NCBI GenBank assembly: GCA_018267825.1
Contig: JAFDXR010000015.1
Span: 1-64,000 of the forward strand
Direction: 5' to 3'
Length of the DNA stretch: 64,000 nucleotides
Source of the DNA: Bacteroidota bacterium
Lineage (GTDB): Bacteria; Bacteroidota; Bacteroidia; B-17B0; Aurantibacillaceae
The notes beneath the pieces are model-generated. The model was not told the origin of the DNA and did not search any database. It saw only the letters and a program-made list of their open reading frames with translations. Shown in pieces: positions 3,675 through 38,462 of the stretch. Position 1 is the first letter of the stretch; every line of letters begins with the position of its first letter. Both the position numbers and the translations under genes were made by a program.

Positions 3675-6600
3675 ATGACACGATCATTATCACGACTATT
3701 CTTCATGGGGGTTTTGGTAGCTTGTGTACAGGTGTATTCCTATGCGCAGTCTATAGCCAATTATTCAACAGCAAGATCAACAGGGGCAACCTATTCATCT
3801 ATCAGTACGACGGGCAACGCCTTTAACAGCTGGCGCAACACCACCAGTTTTACACAGGACGATAACCGTTCTGACTTTACCAATATTGGTTTCGATTTCT
3901 GGTACGACGGAACACGTTACACACAATTTTGCGTATCTACCAACGGGTATATCGACTTCTCTTCTTCAACAGCCAATGGCGGACCTGTTGCAAATGCCTT
4001 TGGTTACGACAACACAGCTTTTACCAACTCCGGTGGCGCAACCGCACCGGCCATTACACCATTTTACGATGACTTAACGGCTCAGGGCGGTACAAATGCC
4101 CTTGGTAACAGCATCAAATATACACTCTCAGGAAGCGCCCCAAACCGCGTACTCACGATCGAGTGGATCAATATGGCCGTTTACGGTAACACATCGCCAA
4201 GCCTCAATTTCCAGGTAAAGCTTTATGAAACCACCGGTATAATTGAGATGTATTACGGCACCATGAACACAGGGTCCTTTACGTTTTCTTACAGCATGGG
4301 AATCAATGGCCCTACACTCAGTGCCACCCCTACAGCAGCGCAGCTTAAAATGTTGCAGGCGGTGAACGGAACAACACTTAACAATACGGTTCAGAACAAC
4401 CTTTCGGCAATGCCTGCTGCCAATTCCAAATATGCATTTACACCACCGGTACCAACGGCGGTAAGCGGTACACTTACATTCTCGGGGGTGTCGCAAAGCG
4501 GCATGACACTTAACTTTCCGAACTGGGCTACCAATGAAGTGGGGTATGTGGTTTACAATTCAACCGATGGCATTAACTACTCATTTGTAACACAAACTGC
4601 AGCCAATGCCACATCGGCGGTTATTACAGGGCTTCTGCCGGGCACACTGTATTACTGGAAAGTATATGCCGTAACCGAAGGCTGCCTGAGCTCCCCCCTC
4701 ACTGGCTCGCAGGCCACCACAGCAGGTGGCAGCAAGGTTTCCAATGCAAACGGAAACTGGAGCAATGCCAATATCTGGACTCCGGTGGGAGTGCCGACTT
4801 CAGCCGATAACGTAACCATCACAAACGGCACAACAGTATTGATCGATGTCAATGCGACCTGTAACCGACTTACCATAGGAAGTGGTGCTGCTGCGGCAAC
4901 ATTACGTTATACCGGAGCCACAGCACGTACATTCACTGTAAATAACAGTATGACGGTAAATGCGCTGGGAGTATTTGATATCAATACAACATCCAATGTC
5001 ACGCATACGCTGATTGCAAAAGGGAATATTACCAACAACGGAACCATTAACCTGGCTACCGATGCCAACAGTCTCTGTAATACACAATTTATAAATAACG
5101 GAAATCAGACCCTGAGCGGTACAGGCGCTACCAATAAGTTCAACAATATACAGTTGAATATGGGAACCTCCTCAAGCAATACACTCAACATTACAGCGAC
5201 CACCTTTACCGCGCCTGCAAACTTCCTGACACTGACCAATGGGGTTTTCAAATTATCCACCACAGGAGCCGTGAACCTAACGCCTTTTACAGCAGCATCT
5301 ACCATACCATTAAGTTCTGGTATTGTCGTTAACTCCGCCAATGCAACAGTTAACACCACGGCTGGCATGACACTTTATGGCTTGCTCTCTGTAGTAAACG
5401 GGGCAATGAATATCGGGAATGCTGCCGATCAGGATGTTTTATCAAGTGGCGGAACCATCAGTGTTTCCGGTGGTACACTGACCATCGCCGGGAAATTATA
5501 TTCGCAGGGCATCAACAACTTGTGTTATTTCAACCTGAGTGGTGGAACAACTATTTTACCAAATGTGGGCTCCACCAACACAACCATTGCGCCATTCCAG
5601 ATGACCGGTGCCGGGTCCCAGTTTTCGATGTCGGGTGGCACCCTGCTTATTCCGCGCGAAGGCGGTACAGGGGCTCAGAACCTTGGATTTGTGAATACCG
5701 GTGCTACAATCGGTTCGGTAACCGGCGGAACGCTTCAGATAGGTAGCGCCAGTTCTCCTGCCGGTCAAACGATCGACATCAATACCAATTATTCTATAGG
5801 TAACCTGCTTGTAAACAGTGCCAATGTTCTGGCCGAACTAAATACAAACACACTCAATGTTATTCAGAATATAACCATCAACACGGGCTCACTGACTGCC
5901 AATAACCTTGACATGAGCCTTGGTGGAAACTGGGTCAATAACGGCGGCACATTTATACCGGGCACGGCTTCAGTGACCTGCAATTCAGCCAGTGCACAAT
6001 CCATTACCAAACCCGGTGGAGAAACATTTAACCACCTGGTATTTAATGGAGCCGGCACCAAAACATTCGGAAGCAATATTACCACCAACGGCAATTTTGT
6101 GATCAACTCCGGATCACCGGTTGATATCAGCGCGTCGAACTATACACTTACCGTGAAAGGAAATTTCTCCAACAGCGGCACACTCAATACCCGCAGCGGC
6201 CTGGTGTTTTTGAACGGCACCACCAATCAGGCTATCGGCGGAACAAGCACCACCAATTTCTATAATCTGACGCTCAACAACACAGCAGGAGCCATTCTCA
6301 ATAATGCCGAAAATATTATCGGAACACTGACATTGAACAATGGTACTTTCAATACAAATTCCAAAGCCTTTACACTTATCTCAACCGCAACCGGAACAGG
6401 GCGCATTGCGCAGATTACCGGAACAGGCGATATTACAGGCAATGTTACCGTACAGCGCTATGCTCCGGGCGGAACCACCGGCTGGGCCTTACTTGGCACG
6501 CCCATTACTTCGGCGCTCACCCTGGCCGACTGGGACGACAACATTCCGATCAGTTGCCCTACCTGTCCCGATGGAAGTGCAGGTGGCTTTTTATCGATTT

Positions 6601-8342
6601 ACACCTACGATGAAACCAAACCGGGCTTATACGACGATGCAGCATCCTATATTCCTCTGAGTGGTATTACAGATCCCATCATTCCGGGCAAAGGCTATTG
6701 GGTATACCTTGGCAATGGCCAGTATACCACAACGGCCATCACGCTGGATGTAACCGGTACTGTGCGTAAATTTGCCTATTCCTTACCATTGAGCTATACC
6801 AATAACGGATCAAGCCTCAACGATGGCTGGAACCTGATTTGTAATCCATACCCTTCACCGATCCGCTGGAGCTTACTGAAAGGTGCTACGGCCAATATCG
6901 ACAATGCGGTGTATGCCTATAATGCCGATCTGAATGGCGGCACAGGAGGTTATTCAACATACATTAACGGGATCAGCAGCCCGGCAGTGGGTGCCGGCGG
7001 TATAGGCGATACAATTCCAATCGGGCAGGGTTTTTATGTGCACTCTACCGGTGCTACGGCCCTCAGTGCCCAGGAGTCTAATAAAGTGGGAGGTAACCCA
7101 ACCTTTTTACGCCAGAGCAATGTGGTGCAGTCCGCCACCAATTCAAACCCGATGATCCGCCTGTATGTGGATGGGTTGGGTTTCCACGACGAGACCGTTC
7201 TTTACACAGAAGCAGGTGCCAGCAATAATTTTGATTTCGGATACGATGCCTACAAACTCCGCGGGCAGGATCCTTATGCTACCAGTATCGCGCTTAGTTA
7301 TGATACTACCGATTTCCAGGTAAACGGTGTGGCGCCAATTACCGGCAACTTCTCCATGTATCTGAAAACGATTACCGGTTATGCAGGGGCTTATACCATC
7401 AGTGCAGCCAATGTAGCATCATTCCCGTCGGGAGCCTGCATTAATCTGTACGACCGATTCACGGGTGTTACCACCGACTTACGTACTTCTACCTATGCCT
7501 ATAACCTGGCCGATACAACGACTGTGGCCCGCTTCATTCTCAACATCAGTCTGCAACCATTGCAGGTAAATACAACAGCGCAGATGCCATCCTGTACGGT
7601 TGCTGCTTCGGGGCAGATCACGGCAGCGGGCGTAAGCAGCGGACCGTGGAATTTCACGTGGAGAGATCCTTCAGGAAACACGATCCGTACACAAACCAAC
7701 AGAACAACAGCCGATACACTGCGCAATATTGCTGTGGGGGGCACCTACGAAGTAGATGTGAATACGGTTGGTATGTGCGATTTTAACACAAGCACTGTTA
7801 CCATCACACCACCGAACCTGCCTGTAGCCCAGTTTAGCTGTGCAGACACAACCTATTTATCAACCGGTGCCATGGTCGCATTCAGCAATAATTCGAGCGG
7901 CTCGGTATCCGATGCCTGGAATTTCGGTGATGGCATGGGTACATCCACGGCTAATTCGCCAACCTATTATTACAACAATTCGGGCACATACGTAGTAAGC
8001 CTTGTGGAAACCAGCTCCAGTGGCTGTACCGACACGGCCACGAAAACCGTGGTGGTGATCAATAATATTGTAACAGGTATCACCGGTCTGGGCAACGACC
8101 CGTCGCTTAGCCTGAGAACGTTGGACAACAACCAATACATGTTGGTACAGAACTTTACACAAAGCACAACCGAACAGGTGAAATTAATGGATATCAATGG
8201 CCGCCTTGTGATGGATTTTGGCACAGTGAGTGGAACCAATGTGAGTCTGCCACTGGATCTGAGCAGCCTGAAACCAGGCATCTACATGCTCAACCTGATC
8301 AGCGGCACCGACAAGAAAGTGTTGAAGCTGCCAGTGAAGTAA
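3675..8342 (+). CDS. Large secreted protein with FN3, PKD and T9SS sorting domain
   Basis: A 1,555-residue cell-surface or secreted protein. It has a signal peptide (about 1-24, ending YSYAQ). Next comes an N-terminal beta-rich segment with an NIGFDFWYDGTRYTQFCVSTNGYI block, a fibronectin type III domain (about 255-348), and a long Asn/Thr/Gly-rich region of short strand repeats (about 355-930) that begins GNWSNANIWTPVGVP. A region with W/G-rich turns (about 930-1340) precedes a PKD domain with WNFGDGMGTSTANSPTYYY (about 1380-1462). The end (about 1473-1555, VKLMDINGRLV...LKPGIYMLNL...KVLKLPVK) is a type A T9SS sorting domain, so export and surface attachment by T9SS are expected. The ligand is unknown. 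It ends at a terminator (8362). Confidence 0.88.
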   Translation: MTRSLSRLFFMGVLVACVQVYSYAQSIANYSTARSTGATYSSISTTGNAFNSWRNTTSFTQDDNRSDFTNIGFDFWYDGTRYTQFCVSTNGYIDFSSSTANGGPVANAFGYDNTAFTNSGGATAPAITPFYDDLTAQGGTNALGNSIKYTLSGSAPNRVLTIEWINMAVYGNTSPSLNFQVKLYETTGIIEMYYGTMNTGSFTFSYSMGINGPTLSATPTAAQLKMLQAVNGTTLNNTVQNNLSAMPAANSKYAFTPPVPTAVSGTLTFSGVSQSGMTLNFPNWATNEVGYVVYNSTDGINYSFVTQTAANATSAVITGLLPGTLYYWKVYAVTEGCLSSPLTGSQATTAGGSKVSNANGNWSNANIWTPVGVPTSADNVTITNGTTVLIDVNATCNRLTIGSGAAAATLRYTGATARTFTVNNSMTVNALGVFDINTTSNVTHTLIAKGNITNNGTINLATDANSLCNTQFINNGNQTLSGTGATNKFNNIQLNMGTSSSNTLNITATTFTAPANFLTLTNGVFKLSTTGAVNLTPFTAASTIPLSSGIVVNSANATVNTTAGMTLYGLLSVVNGAMNIGNAADQDVLSSGGTISVSGGTLTIAGKLYSQGINNLCYFNLSGGTTILPNVGSTNTTIAPFQMTGAGSQFSMSGGTLLIPREGGTGAQNLGFVNTGATIGSVTGGTLQIGSASSPAGQTIDINTNYSIGNLLVNSANVLAELNTNTLNVIQNITINTGSLTANNLDMSLGGNWVNNGGTFIPGTASVTCNSASAQSITKPGGETFNHLVFNGAGTKTFGSNITTNGNFVINSGSPVDISASNYTLTVKGNFSNSGTLNTRSGLVFLNGTTNQAIGGTSTTNFYNLTLNNTAGAILNNAENIIGTLTLNNGTFNTNSKAFTLISTATGTGRIAQITGTGDITGNVTVQRYAPGGTTGWALLGTPITSALTLADWDDNIPISCPTCPDGSAGGFLSIYTYDETKPGLYDDAASYIPLSGITDPIIPGKGYWVYLGNGQYTTTAITLDVTGTVRKFAYSLPLSYTNNGSSLNDGWNLICNPYPSPIRWSLLKGATANIDNAVYAYNADLNGGTGGYSTYINGISSPAVGAGGIGDTIPIGQGFYVHSTGATALSAQESNKVGGNPTFLRQSNVVQSATNSNPMIRLYVDGLGFHDETVLYTEAGASNNFDFGYDAYKLRGQDPYATSIALSYDTTDFQVNGVAPITGNFSMYLKTITGYAGAYTISAANVASFPSGACINLYDRFTGVTTDLRTSTYAYNLADTTTVARFILNISLQPLQVNTTAQMPSCTVAASGQITAAGVSSGPWNFTWRDPSGNTIRTQTNRTTADTLRNIAVGGTYEVDVNTVGMCDFNTSTVTITPPNLPVAQFSCADTTYLSTGAMVAFSNNSSGSVSDAWNFGDGMGTSTANSPTYYYNNSGTYVVSLVETSSSGCTDTATKTVVVINNIVTGITGLGNDPSLSLRTLDNNQYMLVQNFTQSTTEQVKLMDINGRLVMDFGTVSGTNVSLPLDLSSLKPGIYMLNLISGTDKKVLKLPVK

Positions 8343-8430: not shown

Positions 8431-9042
8431 GTTGGTGATAACACCAACGGAGGCGCGAATCAGGGAATGAAATTCATGATCGCCCATGCAGGTGTTATCA
8501 CCTGCATGAATATTTATAGTTGTGGCTGACCATGCCAATAAAACCCGGAGCAATGAGATCTACGCGTTGGTGATAACACCAACGAAGGCAGAACAATAAA
8601 ATGTATTTTGGTAATACAAACGGAACCCTATCGCCCATGCAGGTGTTATCACCTGCATGAATATTTACATAGTTGGGCTGACAATGCCAATAAAACCCGG
8701 GGTAATGAGATCTACCCGTTGGTGATAACACCAACGAAGGCAGAACACCAACGGAGGCGCGAATCAGGGAATGAAATTTATGATCGCCCACGCAGGTGTT
8801 ATCACCTGCGTGGATATTTACATAGTTGTGACTGACAATGCCAATAAAACCCGGAGCAATGAGATCTACTCGTTGGCGATAACACCAACGAAGGCAGAAC
8901 AATAAAATGTATTTTGGTAATACAAACGGAACCCTATCGCCCATGCAGGTGTTATCACCTGCATGAATATTTACATAGTTGGGCTGACAATGCCAATAAA
9001 ACCTGGAGCAATGAGACCTACCCGTTGGCGATAACACCAACG
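8431..9042. repeat. Array of nine hairpins in four 152-bp monomers (two alternating types)
   Basis: Nine dyads share a 12-bp core, GGTG-TTAT-CACC or its reverse complement. Four are type GCAGGTG-TTAT-CACCTGC (8485-8508, 8636-8659, 8788-8813, 8942-8965). Five are type GTTGGTG-ATAA-CACCAAC (8431-8448, 8565-8584, 8717-8736, 8871-8890, 9023-9042). They alternate within monomers of about 152 bp: A1 8443-8594, B1 8595-8746, A2 8747-8900 and B2 8901-9050. A and B differ only in the left flank, so the array is a tandem duplication of an A-B dimer (period about 305 bp). It lies between two converging genes. No transposase is attached. Confidence 0.9.
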
Positions 9043-9051
9043 AAGGCAGAA

Positions 9052-10881
9052 TCAGTTCCACTCAAACTGCATTTTGCTGAGTTTCTGATAAAGGCCATTA
9101 TCATTGGTGATGAGCTCCTGGTGTGTGCCGATTTCCTGAACGGTACCTTTCTGCAATACCACTATTTTATCGGCGTTGCGGATGGTTGATAAGCGGTGAG
9201 CAATAACAATGGAGGTACGTCCTACCATGAGCTTATCTAGCGCTTCCTGAACCAGGCGCTCGCTTTCACTGTCGAGACTGCTGGTAGCCTCATCGAGAAT
9301 GAGTATGGATGGGTTTTTTATTACAGCACGGGCGATGGCTACCCGTTGACGCTGACCACCGGATAGTTGAATGCCCCGGTCGCCAACAAGGGTTTCAAAC
9401 TTATCAGGGAAACTCATAATGAAATCATAGGCATTAGCCTGTTTAGCAGCATCAATAATTTCATCCATAGAGGCGTTTGGCTTTCCGTATGCAATATTTT
9501 CCTTAATTGTGCCCCCAAAAAGTAAAACATCCTGTGGTACAATCGCCATTTGATCACGAAGTTCGGTTAATTCATAATCAGTAGATTTTTTACCATCAAT
9601 AAGATATTCGCCGCTATTTGGCTCATAGAATCGCAGGGTAAGTGCCGCCAGGGTTGATTTTCCGCTGCCACTGCTGCCAACAAGCGCGACCGTTTCGCCG
9701 GCTTTTGCAGAAAAAGAAATATCATGAAGTACTTCATAATCGGGTCTGGACGGGTATGTAAAGGAGATATGACTGAATACTATATCGCCCTTAACACGTT
9801 TTTTGTCTTTGTTAGACCCGTATTCAAGATTTATTATTTCAGGATCGGAATTAATGATTTCAAAAACACGATCTGTAGCCCCAAGAGCCCTTTGTATAGA
9901 GGCAATTTGCTCGGGGAGTCCTCCTAAAGAACCGGCCACAAACAAAGACAACATCATAAACTGTCCAAACTGCGCAGGCGTAATCTTATTGTCGAGTTTC
10001 AATAATATCATCTGGTAAAGGATAAAAAATATCGACCCAAAAATAACGGTCATAATAAACGCGAAAAAAGTCCCCTTGAGAATTCCAAACTTAATCCCGT
10101 TTTTTCTTATGTTCTCAATGTTATTTACATAGCGATCTATTTCAAATTTTTCATTTGTAAAAGATTTCACACTATTTATGCCGGTTAATGCTTCAACAAC
10201 AATAACATTCGACTGAGCAACAAGATCCTGAACCATTTTTGCAAACTTGCGGATTCTCCGCGCATAGAATATGGCAACAAATGTAATAGGTGGAATAATA
10301 AATATAAACCATTTGGCAATCTCCCAGGAGGTATAATTGATGATTAAAATGATACCGCCTATGGCCACGATAGACTGCCTTGTAAACTCGGCAATATTAA
10401 CAGTAAAGGCTTCTGCTATAACATTAATATCAGTAGCAACCCTGCTACTCAATTCTGCTACCTGGTTCTTTGAGAAAAAACTCATTGGCATCTGAACAAG
10501 TTTCTGAAAAGTGTCTTTACGAACGCCTTTTAGAATGCTTTCTGTAACCTGTGCAAAAGTGAAAACCCTGCCAAATGATACTAACGCCTGAAAAATCAAT
10601 AAACCCATAAGGGTGAGTCCTATGGTTGTAACATCTTGTTTCAATATATCCTTTGACGTTGTTGTATCTCCGAATATACCAAACATCTTTCCGGAAGCAA
10701 GTGGGAAATAAAGACCAACACCTCCGCTCATCGTCAGAAAAACCAATCCAAGTACAAACTTCCATTTATTATTTCCGAGATATTGAAATAACTGGAAAGA
10801 TTTTTTAAGGTTTTCGACGTTTAATTTTGCCTTTGGAATTTCGTCCTTCTCCTTGTGTTTAATGCGGGCGCCTTTAGCCAT
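9052..10881 (-). CDS. ABC exporter, fused permease and ATPase (MsbA/MDR type)
   Basis: A 609-residue half-transporter that works as a homodimer in the inner membrane and exports lipids or drugs using ATP. The transmembrane domain (about 40-345) is followed by the nucleotide-binding domain (about 365-605) with Walker A VGSSGSGKST (411-420), Q-loop VPQD (458-461), signature LSGGQ (516-520), Walker B ILILDEA (536-542) and the H-loop AHR (561-563). All catalytic residues are present, so it should be active. The substrate cannot be told from sequence; MsbA-like lipid A export is possible. The stop codon is only 10 bp beyond the hairpin array. The N-terminal half is visibly richer in A+T than its neighbours. 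Confidence 0.92.
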   Translation of the reverse strand: MAKGARIKHKEKDEIPKAKLNVENLKKSFQLFQYLGNNKWKFVLGLVFLTMSGGVGLYFPLASGKMFGIFGDTTTSKDILKQDVTTIGLTLMGLLIFQALVSFGRVFTFAQVTESILKGVRKDTFQKLVQMPMSFFSKNQVAELSSRVATDINVIAEAFTVNIAEFTRQSIVAIGGIILIINYTSWEIAKWFIFIIPPITFVAIFYARRIRKFAKMVQDLVAQSNVIVVEALTGINSVKSFTNEKFEIDRYVNNIENIRKNGIKFGILKGTFFAFIMTVIFGSIFFILYQMILLKLDNKITPAQFGQFMMLSLFVAGSLGGLPEQIASIQRALGATDRVFEIINSDPEIINLEYGSNKDKKRVKGDIVFSHISFTYPSRPDYEVLHDISFSAKAGETVALVGSSGSGKSTLAALTLRFYEPNSGEYLIDGKKSTDYELTELRDQMAIVPQDVLLFGGTIKENIAYGKPNASMDEIIDAAKQANAYDFIMSFPDKFETLVGDRGIQLSGGQRQRVAIARAVIKNPSILILDEATSSLDSESERLVQEALDKLMVGRTSIVIAHRLSTIRNADKIVVLQKGTVQEIGTHQELITNDNGLYQKLSKMQFEWN

Positions 10882-37961: not shown

Positions 37962-38462
37962 TTAATCTTCTTTTTTCTTAGCAGCAGCTTTTTTAGCAGG
38001 TGCTTTTTTCGCAGCAGCTTTCTTGGCTGGCGCTTTTTTCGCAGCAGCTTTAGGAGTAGCTTCTACTTCCGCAACTTCTTTTTTGCTGGCTTTTGCGGGA
38101 GCCACTTTTTCTTTTTTGGTAACGGCGATTTCATCTTTCAATGTTTCACCTTTACCTAAAATGCCCTGAACCAGGATTTGTGTAAAAGACTGGCGGTGGT
38201 TGTTCCACTTCTGGTATCCTTTACGACGTTTTTTCTTGAACACGAAAACCTTGTCTCCTTTTAAGTGTTCTACTACGGTGGCAGCAACTTTGGCGCCATC
38301 TACGGTAGGGTTTCCAACAGAGATTTTTCCGCCGTTATCAATCAATAACACACGGTCAAACTCTACTTTAGAACCCTCATTAGCATCTAGGCGGTGAACG
38401 TAAACTTTATTGCCACGTTCCACTTTAAACTGTTGCCCTGCTATCTCTACAATTGCGTACAT
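37962..38462 (-). CDS. rplU: 50S ribosomal protein L21 with Ala/Lys-rich tail
   Basis: L21 is a 23S rRNA-binding protein of about 100 residues; here the core (1-103) with MYAIVEIAGQQFKVERGNKV and KKRRKGYQKWNNHRQSF is complete. A further 60 residues form a low-complexity tail of Ala, Lys and Pro (KKAPAKKAA and KKAAAKK repeats) with a Glu-containing start. Longer L21 tails occur in Bacteroidota. The tail resembles histone H1-like or other basic disordered tails and could touch rRNA. It is first in the rplU-rpmA operon with a promoter 40 bp upstream. Confidence 0.97.
   Translation of the reverse strand: MYAIVEIAGQQFKVERGNKVYVHRLDANEGSKVEFDRVLLIDNGGKISVGNPTVDGAKVAATVVEHLKGDKVFVFKKKRRKGYQKWNNHRQSFTQILVQGILGKGETLKDEIAVTKKEKVAPAKASKKEVAEVEATPKAAAKKAPAKKAAAKKAPAKKAAAKKKED

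Follow-up and report, generated by a model that had tools for sequence, protein, structure and literature searches.

Systems that pair a REP-associated tyrosine transposase (RAYT) with REP sequences are regarded as an early instance of transposase domestication in prokaryotes. In E. coli, unlike REP subtypes are known to alternate within BIMEs, as Y does with Z2 (PMC6006769), and alternating REP orientations have also been described in BIMEs (PMC2817692). Subclass 2.6 of Quentin et al. (2018), which corresponds to group 5 of Bertels, is tabulated there with the motifs NH[LIV]H, W, YIH[QN]NP and SS, and in the main text its REPs are termed 'atypical', without GT[AG]G (PMC6006769). So far, this Bacteroidetes branch of RAYTs has been described only with such 'atypical' hairpins.

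We analysed a stretch of 64,000 nucleotides from a Bacteroidota genome (assembly GCA_018267825.1, contig JAFDXR010000015.1, positions 1 to 64,000), hereafter the window, in which an array of hairpins lies between two converging genes, as had been noted in the original prediction from the sequence. The features of this region are as follows.

3675..8342, + strand: upstream convergent gene, encoding a 1555-aa secreted protein with a PKD domain and a T9SS sorting tail
8440..9051, no strand: tandem array, BIME-like, with a 306-bp higher-order period
8431..8454, - strand: B-form hairpin 1, GTTGGTG-TTAT-CACCAAC on the - strand, GCC tag at 8452-8454
8482..8508, + strand: A-form hairpin 1, CATGCAGGTG-TTAT-CACCTGCATG, GCC tag at 8482-8484
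8565..8589, - strand: B-form hairpin 2, GCC tag at 8587-8589
8633..8659, + strand: A-form hairpin 2, with GCC tag
8717..8741, - strand: B-form hairpin 3, with GCC tag
8786..8813, + strand: A-form hairpin 3, CACGCAGGTG...CACCTGCGTG, with GCC tag
8871..8895, - strand: B-form hairpin 4, with GCC tag; its core reads GGCGATAACACC, which leaves a G.T wobble on the tag-bearing strand
8939..8965, + strand: A-form hairpin 4, with GCC tag
9023..9047, - strand: B-form hairpin 5, with GCC tag; its core also reads GGCGATAACACC
9052..10881, - strand: downstream convergent gene, encoding a 609-aa ABC transporter, with a stop codon that directly abuts the array

The nine dyads (8431-9042) follow the order B-A-B-A-B-A-B-A-B on strands - + - + - + - + -. 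In the TTAT-loop orientation, the four A forms (+ strand) have the outer stem GCA/TGC and the five B forms (- strand) have GTT/AAC, so that the proposed alternation of two outer-stem forms in fixed order proved to be strict and inverted. The claim of nine dyads sharing one core held for the number of dyads and only partly for the core: the exact 12-mer is present in seven, while at 8875 and 9027 the B copies have GGCGATAACACC, with GGCG replacing GGTG, a change that leaves a G.T wobble possible on the tag-bearing strand. In A-form hairpin 3, both sides of an outer pair have changed, turning T-A into C-G and CATGCA/TGCATG into CACGCA/TGCGTG, so that the stem is kept. The array region as single-stranded DNA folds 12.9 standard deviations below dinucleotide shuffles (z -12.9). 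The proposed 152-bp monomer is indeed a tandem repeat, but it is half of a better-scoring 306-bp dimer (2.0 copies with 95% matches, versus 3.8 copies with 83% at a period of ~152 bp), because the linker from A to B never changes, whereas that from B to A is of two kinds in alternation. The linkers were found at the array locus only, and the hairpins recur elsewhere in the genome. We rejected a CRISPR array, since the linkers repeat within the array and the hairpins also occur singly across the genome. The suggestion that two alternating forms are unlike a plain REP was not sustained, as inverted unlike pairs of this kind are normal in BIMEs as these are described in PMC6006769 and PMC2817692. 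Elsewhere in the window, positions 37974-38051 hold a tandem 15/30-bp repeat (TTTTTTAGCAGCAGC).

Across the 4.8 Mb of the source genome (G000), the 12-mer core has 61 exact copies and a reversed-pattern control has none, which excludes a unique array with no dispersed copies. About 50 copies of the palindromic repeat lie outside the array, and the general hairpin reads GCC, six nucleotides, GGTG-TTAT-CACC and six complementary nucleotides, and of 63 hairpins, 50 have GCC correctly placed. Dispersed single hairpins, of form A as well as form B, are present as the original prediction proposed to check, but the 152-bp monomer is not dispersed: its full-length matches are confined to the array, only hairpins with their tags match outside it, and the monomer was for this reason rejected as the mobile unit. 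Forty of 56 stemmed copies are intergenic, seven are at contig edges and nine fall within ORFs of 90 aa or longer, five of these belonging to the array's own doubtful ORF. Thus, as is typical of REPs and BIMEs, the element is a short palindrome with many dispersed and mostly intergenic copies. Rfam searches around the array and near five other hairpin clusters returned tRNAs only, and a literature search for the 12-mer core returned unrelated papers only. Two further loci (L045 and L050, on G000:C19 and C22) hold clusters of seven same-orientation B hairpins among single accessory-looking genes. Their shared orientation led us to consider an integron-cassette reading, which, judged by hairpin sequence and order, we set aside as improbable because the hairpins are without attC core sites in the R''/R' arrangement (RYYYAAC...GTTRRRY) and other clusters are inverted.

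One RAYT gene was detected in the source genome (G000:C27:378429-378962, 178 aa), by the NCBIfam model NF047646 (REP_Tyr_transpos, E 1.5e-19). Despite scores below the cut-offs of NCBIfam (71.9 of 80 bits) and Pfam Y1_Tnp (17.3 of 23), its reading frame, motifs and predicted fold are intact. A search of the genome with PF01797 (Y1_Tnp) yielded no transposase, so this profile by itself would give a false 'no RAYT'. The gene is flanked by the same element as the window array, with an A hairpin 85 bp away on its 5' side and, on its 3' side, B hairpins at distances of 22 and 169 bp, all tags outward. This A(+)/B(-) frame is common to the gene and the array, and the array's best match outside itself is the A hairpin upstream of the RAYT gene, to which A-form hairpin 1 (8482..8508) is identical at 27 of 27 bases. 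A cognate RAYT gene flanked by its own element is a further property of REP/BIME systems, and the original idea of an interspersed palindromic family with a distant transposase agrees with both the dispersed hairpins and this gene, the product of which presumably mobilises them. A second copy of the last 38 RAYT codons is present between the two downstream B hairpins (L053:3850-4140, G000:C27). This 3' duplication is a 147-bp unit that ends at a B hairpin, which suggests that it was amplified locally in the way that the window array was.

The RAYT carries the motifs NHIH, W, YIHNNP (with Y133) and SS at 155-156, and has a long HuH-Y spacing, from H59 to Y133. A RAYT alignment (A1) shows no variation at the NHIH histidines, the W, T81, the first serine and, within YIHNNP, the Y, H, N and P, while the residue after W is E in the source genome and varies among E, Q and K in relatives. 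In the PDB, the sequence matches a single entry, 4ER8 (E 5.3e-7), in which E. coli TnpA_REP is bound to a REP hairpin, and this structure is also the top Foldseek match of the AlphaFold model (pLDDT 93.6; E 2.4e-7, 17% identity), followed by IS200/IS605 transposases; the predicted structure therefore has the HUH-Y1 fold. The HuH, W, YIH[QN]NP and serine motifs are those of subclass 2.6, with WE for WQ, as is the origin in Bacteroidetes. Motifs, HuH-Y spacing and taxon agree with Quentin subclass 2.6, or Bertels group 5, to which this RAYT probably belongs.

Further likenesses to subclass 2.6 are that the hairpins on either side of the gene lack GT[AG]G and that copies are present elsewhere in the genome. 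The main text of PMC6006769 gives no consensus for these structures and calls them weak, whereas the present hairpins have 10-bp, mostly perfect stems with a GCC tag and a GTG-TYNY-CAC top. They have GCC in place of the 5' unpaired GTAG or CGTC of classical REPs and, because the REPs of subclass 2.6 are reported without GT[AG]G (PMC6006769, main text), the GCC tag makes the array a REP variant, of a kind that is present across Bacteroidota. With the BIMEs and REPINs of E. coli, the present system shares inverted pairs of unlike REPs, tandem BIME clusters, a REP-framed RAYT gene and the HUH-Y1 fold. However, E. coli TnpA_REP belongs to subclass 2.2 and has Y, Z1 and Z2 REPs, with a GTAG tag and a long bulged stem, while the RAYT described here is of a different subclass and its hairpins have a GCC tag, a short perfect stem and a tetraloop. 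The IS200/IS605 elements (IS608, ISDra2) are similar in their subterminal hairpins of single-stranded DNA, 5' guide and HUH-Y1 transposase, and 14 copies in the source genome have a T-rich TTAY before the tag. The ends of IS200/IS605 elements are not inverted repeats, in contrast to the inverted framing hairpins with outward tags seen here; moreover, the transposase here is single-copy and no TnpB was seen beside its gene.

At RAYT loci of the family and of the class Bacteroidia, we looked for GTG-N3..5-CAC hairpins up to 500 bp away. The RAYT tree splits at 100/100, with hairpins at 27 of 37 loci in one clade and at 0 of 31 in its sister clade, from which we consider chance hits negligible. 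The hairpins have coevolved with this one RAYT clade. Eight of the ten in-clade loci without the strict motif have variants (longer or altered loops, or stem changes). From 58 hairpins at 23 loci we derived the consensus (G/C)CC-N3-G-N3-GTG-T[TC]N[TC]-CAC-N3-C-N3; CC is at -9/-8 in 40 of these 58 RAYT-flanking hairpins, and the T-first strand is outward in 56 of 71 flanking hairpins. Stem positions covary (96.9% of cells paired; 102 double changes versus 26.6 shuffled), with a bias at the five pairs next to GTG/CAC, where the scan demanded pairing; the two outermost pairs, unselected by the scan, have 20 and 18 double changes. In an even class-wide sample, uncorrected for kinship, this RAYT is present in six of seven genomes with at least two tagged cores and in 26 of 388 others.

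The hairpin of the source genome also occurs in genomes of Xanthocytophaga, Mucilaginibacter, Ferruginibacter and Chitinophagaceae, where it frequently forms inverted doublets with a distance of 33-48 bp. We examined 13 inverted pairs in three other genomes (G325, G004 and G108), one of them from a different taxonomic family, and every pair is heterotypic; G108 has a second alternating array on contig C39. Both inverted pairs (REPINs) and alternating clusters (BIMEs) are therefore represented, by the window array, the G004 doublets, the G108:C39 array and the G325 pairs. Contigs C1, C4, C18, C20, C22 and C24 of G004 terminate in a doublet with 39-bp spacing, which means that assemblies break at the repeat and that its copies are undercounted.

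The boundary of the element can be read from a longer repeat in the source genome, which begins with the B hairpin and has 14 copies, ~200 bp long in most (L042:2941, L046:3074, L047:3147, L050:4263-8860, L054, L055 and L059). Pairwise identity is near chance upstream (0.27-0.29), 0.88 in TTAY, 1.0 in GCC and at least 0.96 beyond, and the hairpins themselves are nearly identical (0.98-1.0). This abrupt loss of similarity 5' of the tag points to the tag as the left end of the unit that moved, and a tag at the end of the unit is a prediction of the RAYT/REP and IS200/IS605 models, as presented in PMC8266576 and PMC6006769. No empty site was found among the genomes covered, none of which is congeneric. 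Downstream, the longer repeat runs on with further hairpins such as GCCCCTCCGGGGC.

Our preferred explanation, to which we give a probability of roughly 0.87, is a group-5 RAYT/REP system with the array as its BIME, made up of inverted REP doublets that were amplified locally; cutting and movement are its presumptive parts. When single-stranded DNA is exposed, the tag-bearing strand of each element would fold into a 10-bp hairpin, in which the RAYT may read the GTG/CAC stem top, the invariant G-C pair four positions lower, the loop with its leading T and, on the 5' side, the (G)CC tag; the catalytic tyrosine of the RAYT (Y133) would cut beside the tag. The mobile unit would be delimited by two unlike hairpins, A+ and B-, with tags outward, and the window array might be a gene-free form of the A+/B- frame that holds the RAYT gene. 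Genome-wide spread could have taken place via single-strand transposition or templated copying, and the local 306-bp expansion via duplication between tags. Binding, cutting and movement by the RAYT, and the role of A and B as two ends, are what we infer from these patterns. Points against this reading are that the RAYT scores below both profile cut-offs, that ordinary recombination could have spread the array units with no part played by the RAYT, and that the hairpins lack the GTAG/CGTC tag seen in classical REPs. A stricter version, to which we give only tentative credence, is that A and B are both obligatory, one as the left end and the other as the right end of a single-strand unit served by one group-5 RAYT with GCC as guide; if so, REPINs of the GCC-hairpin family would behave as minimal two-ended transposons.

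The hairpins might instead be kept mainly as host RNA elements, either terminators or stabilisers of mRNA 3' ends, with an incidental or historical link to the RAYT. The position of the array immediately after the ABC-transporter stop codon fits this view, as do the intergenic copies in the source genome, 17 of which are between convergent and four between divergent genes. One hairpin is terminator-like, although shuffles yield such hairpins too (2 found, mean 1.1), and there is no consistent T-run. Compared with the gene whose 3' end is nearest, the hairpins lie on the same strand in 15 cases and on the opposite strand in 12, a terminator needs neither a 5' GCC tag nor a sharp upstream boundary, and the hairpins track one RAYT clade and are absent from its sister, all of which makes a primary role in RNA improbable. 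We give still less weight to a double-stranded operator for a DNA-binding protein, such as a nucleoid protein or regulator, that was spread by selection. A conserved, near-palindromic 12-bp core in many copies would suit such a site, but it would not need the compensating pair changes of the outer stem; the loop and tag are asymmetric, and the long flanks are common to copies on one tag side only, so that we consider an operator very improbable.

The array could also be a neutral local tandem duplication, in which the hairpins are passive relics of the RAYT and no longer mobile in this genome. Because this proposal concerns present activity rather than identity, it is compatible with the BIME explanation. 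Linkers confined to the array locus, the 95% repeat of the 306-bp unit, the similar duplication of the RAYT 3' end and the single-copy RAYT all speak for it, while the intact RAYT reading frame and motifs, and the near identity of the hairpins in the 14 long copies, speak against it, and overall we find a loss of mobility conceivable but doubtful.

Relative to the main text of PMC6006769, the explicit hairpin consensus, the GCC tag and the consistently unlike pairing are apparently new. The consensus allows such repeats to be annotated across Bacteroidota and, together with the matched RAYT clades (>20 loci), provides pairs of substrate and protein for studying how HUH enzymes read GCC versus GTAG. 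A tagged hairpin of the Bacteroidota type is also present in a contig labelled as a Streptomyces griseus MAG (L113), which is probably mis-binned, and a match in Anaerolineaceae (L101) was taken as chance, since 257 Gb should contain ~0.5 exact 20-mers by coincidence. Several RAYT loci of the sister clade (L146, L152, L154, L156 and L158) have an inverted flanking hairpin of their own, TCCGCAGGATT-NNN-AATCCTGCGGA, which is apparently another REP family.
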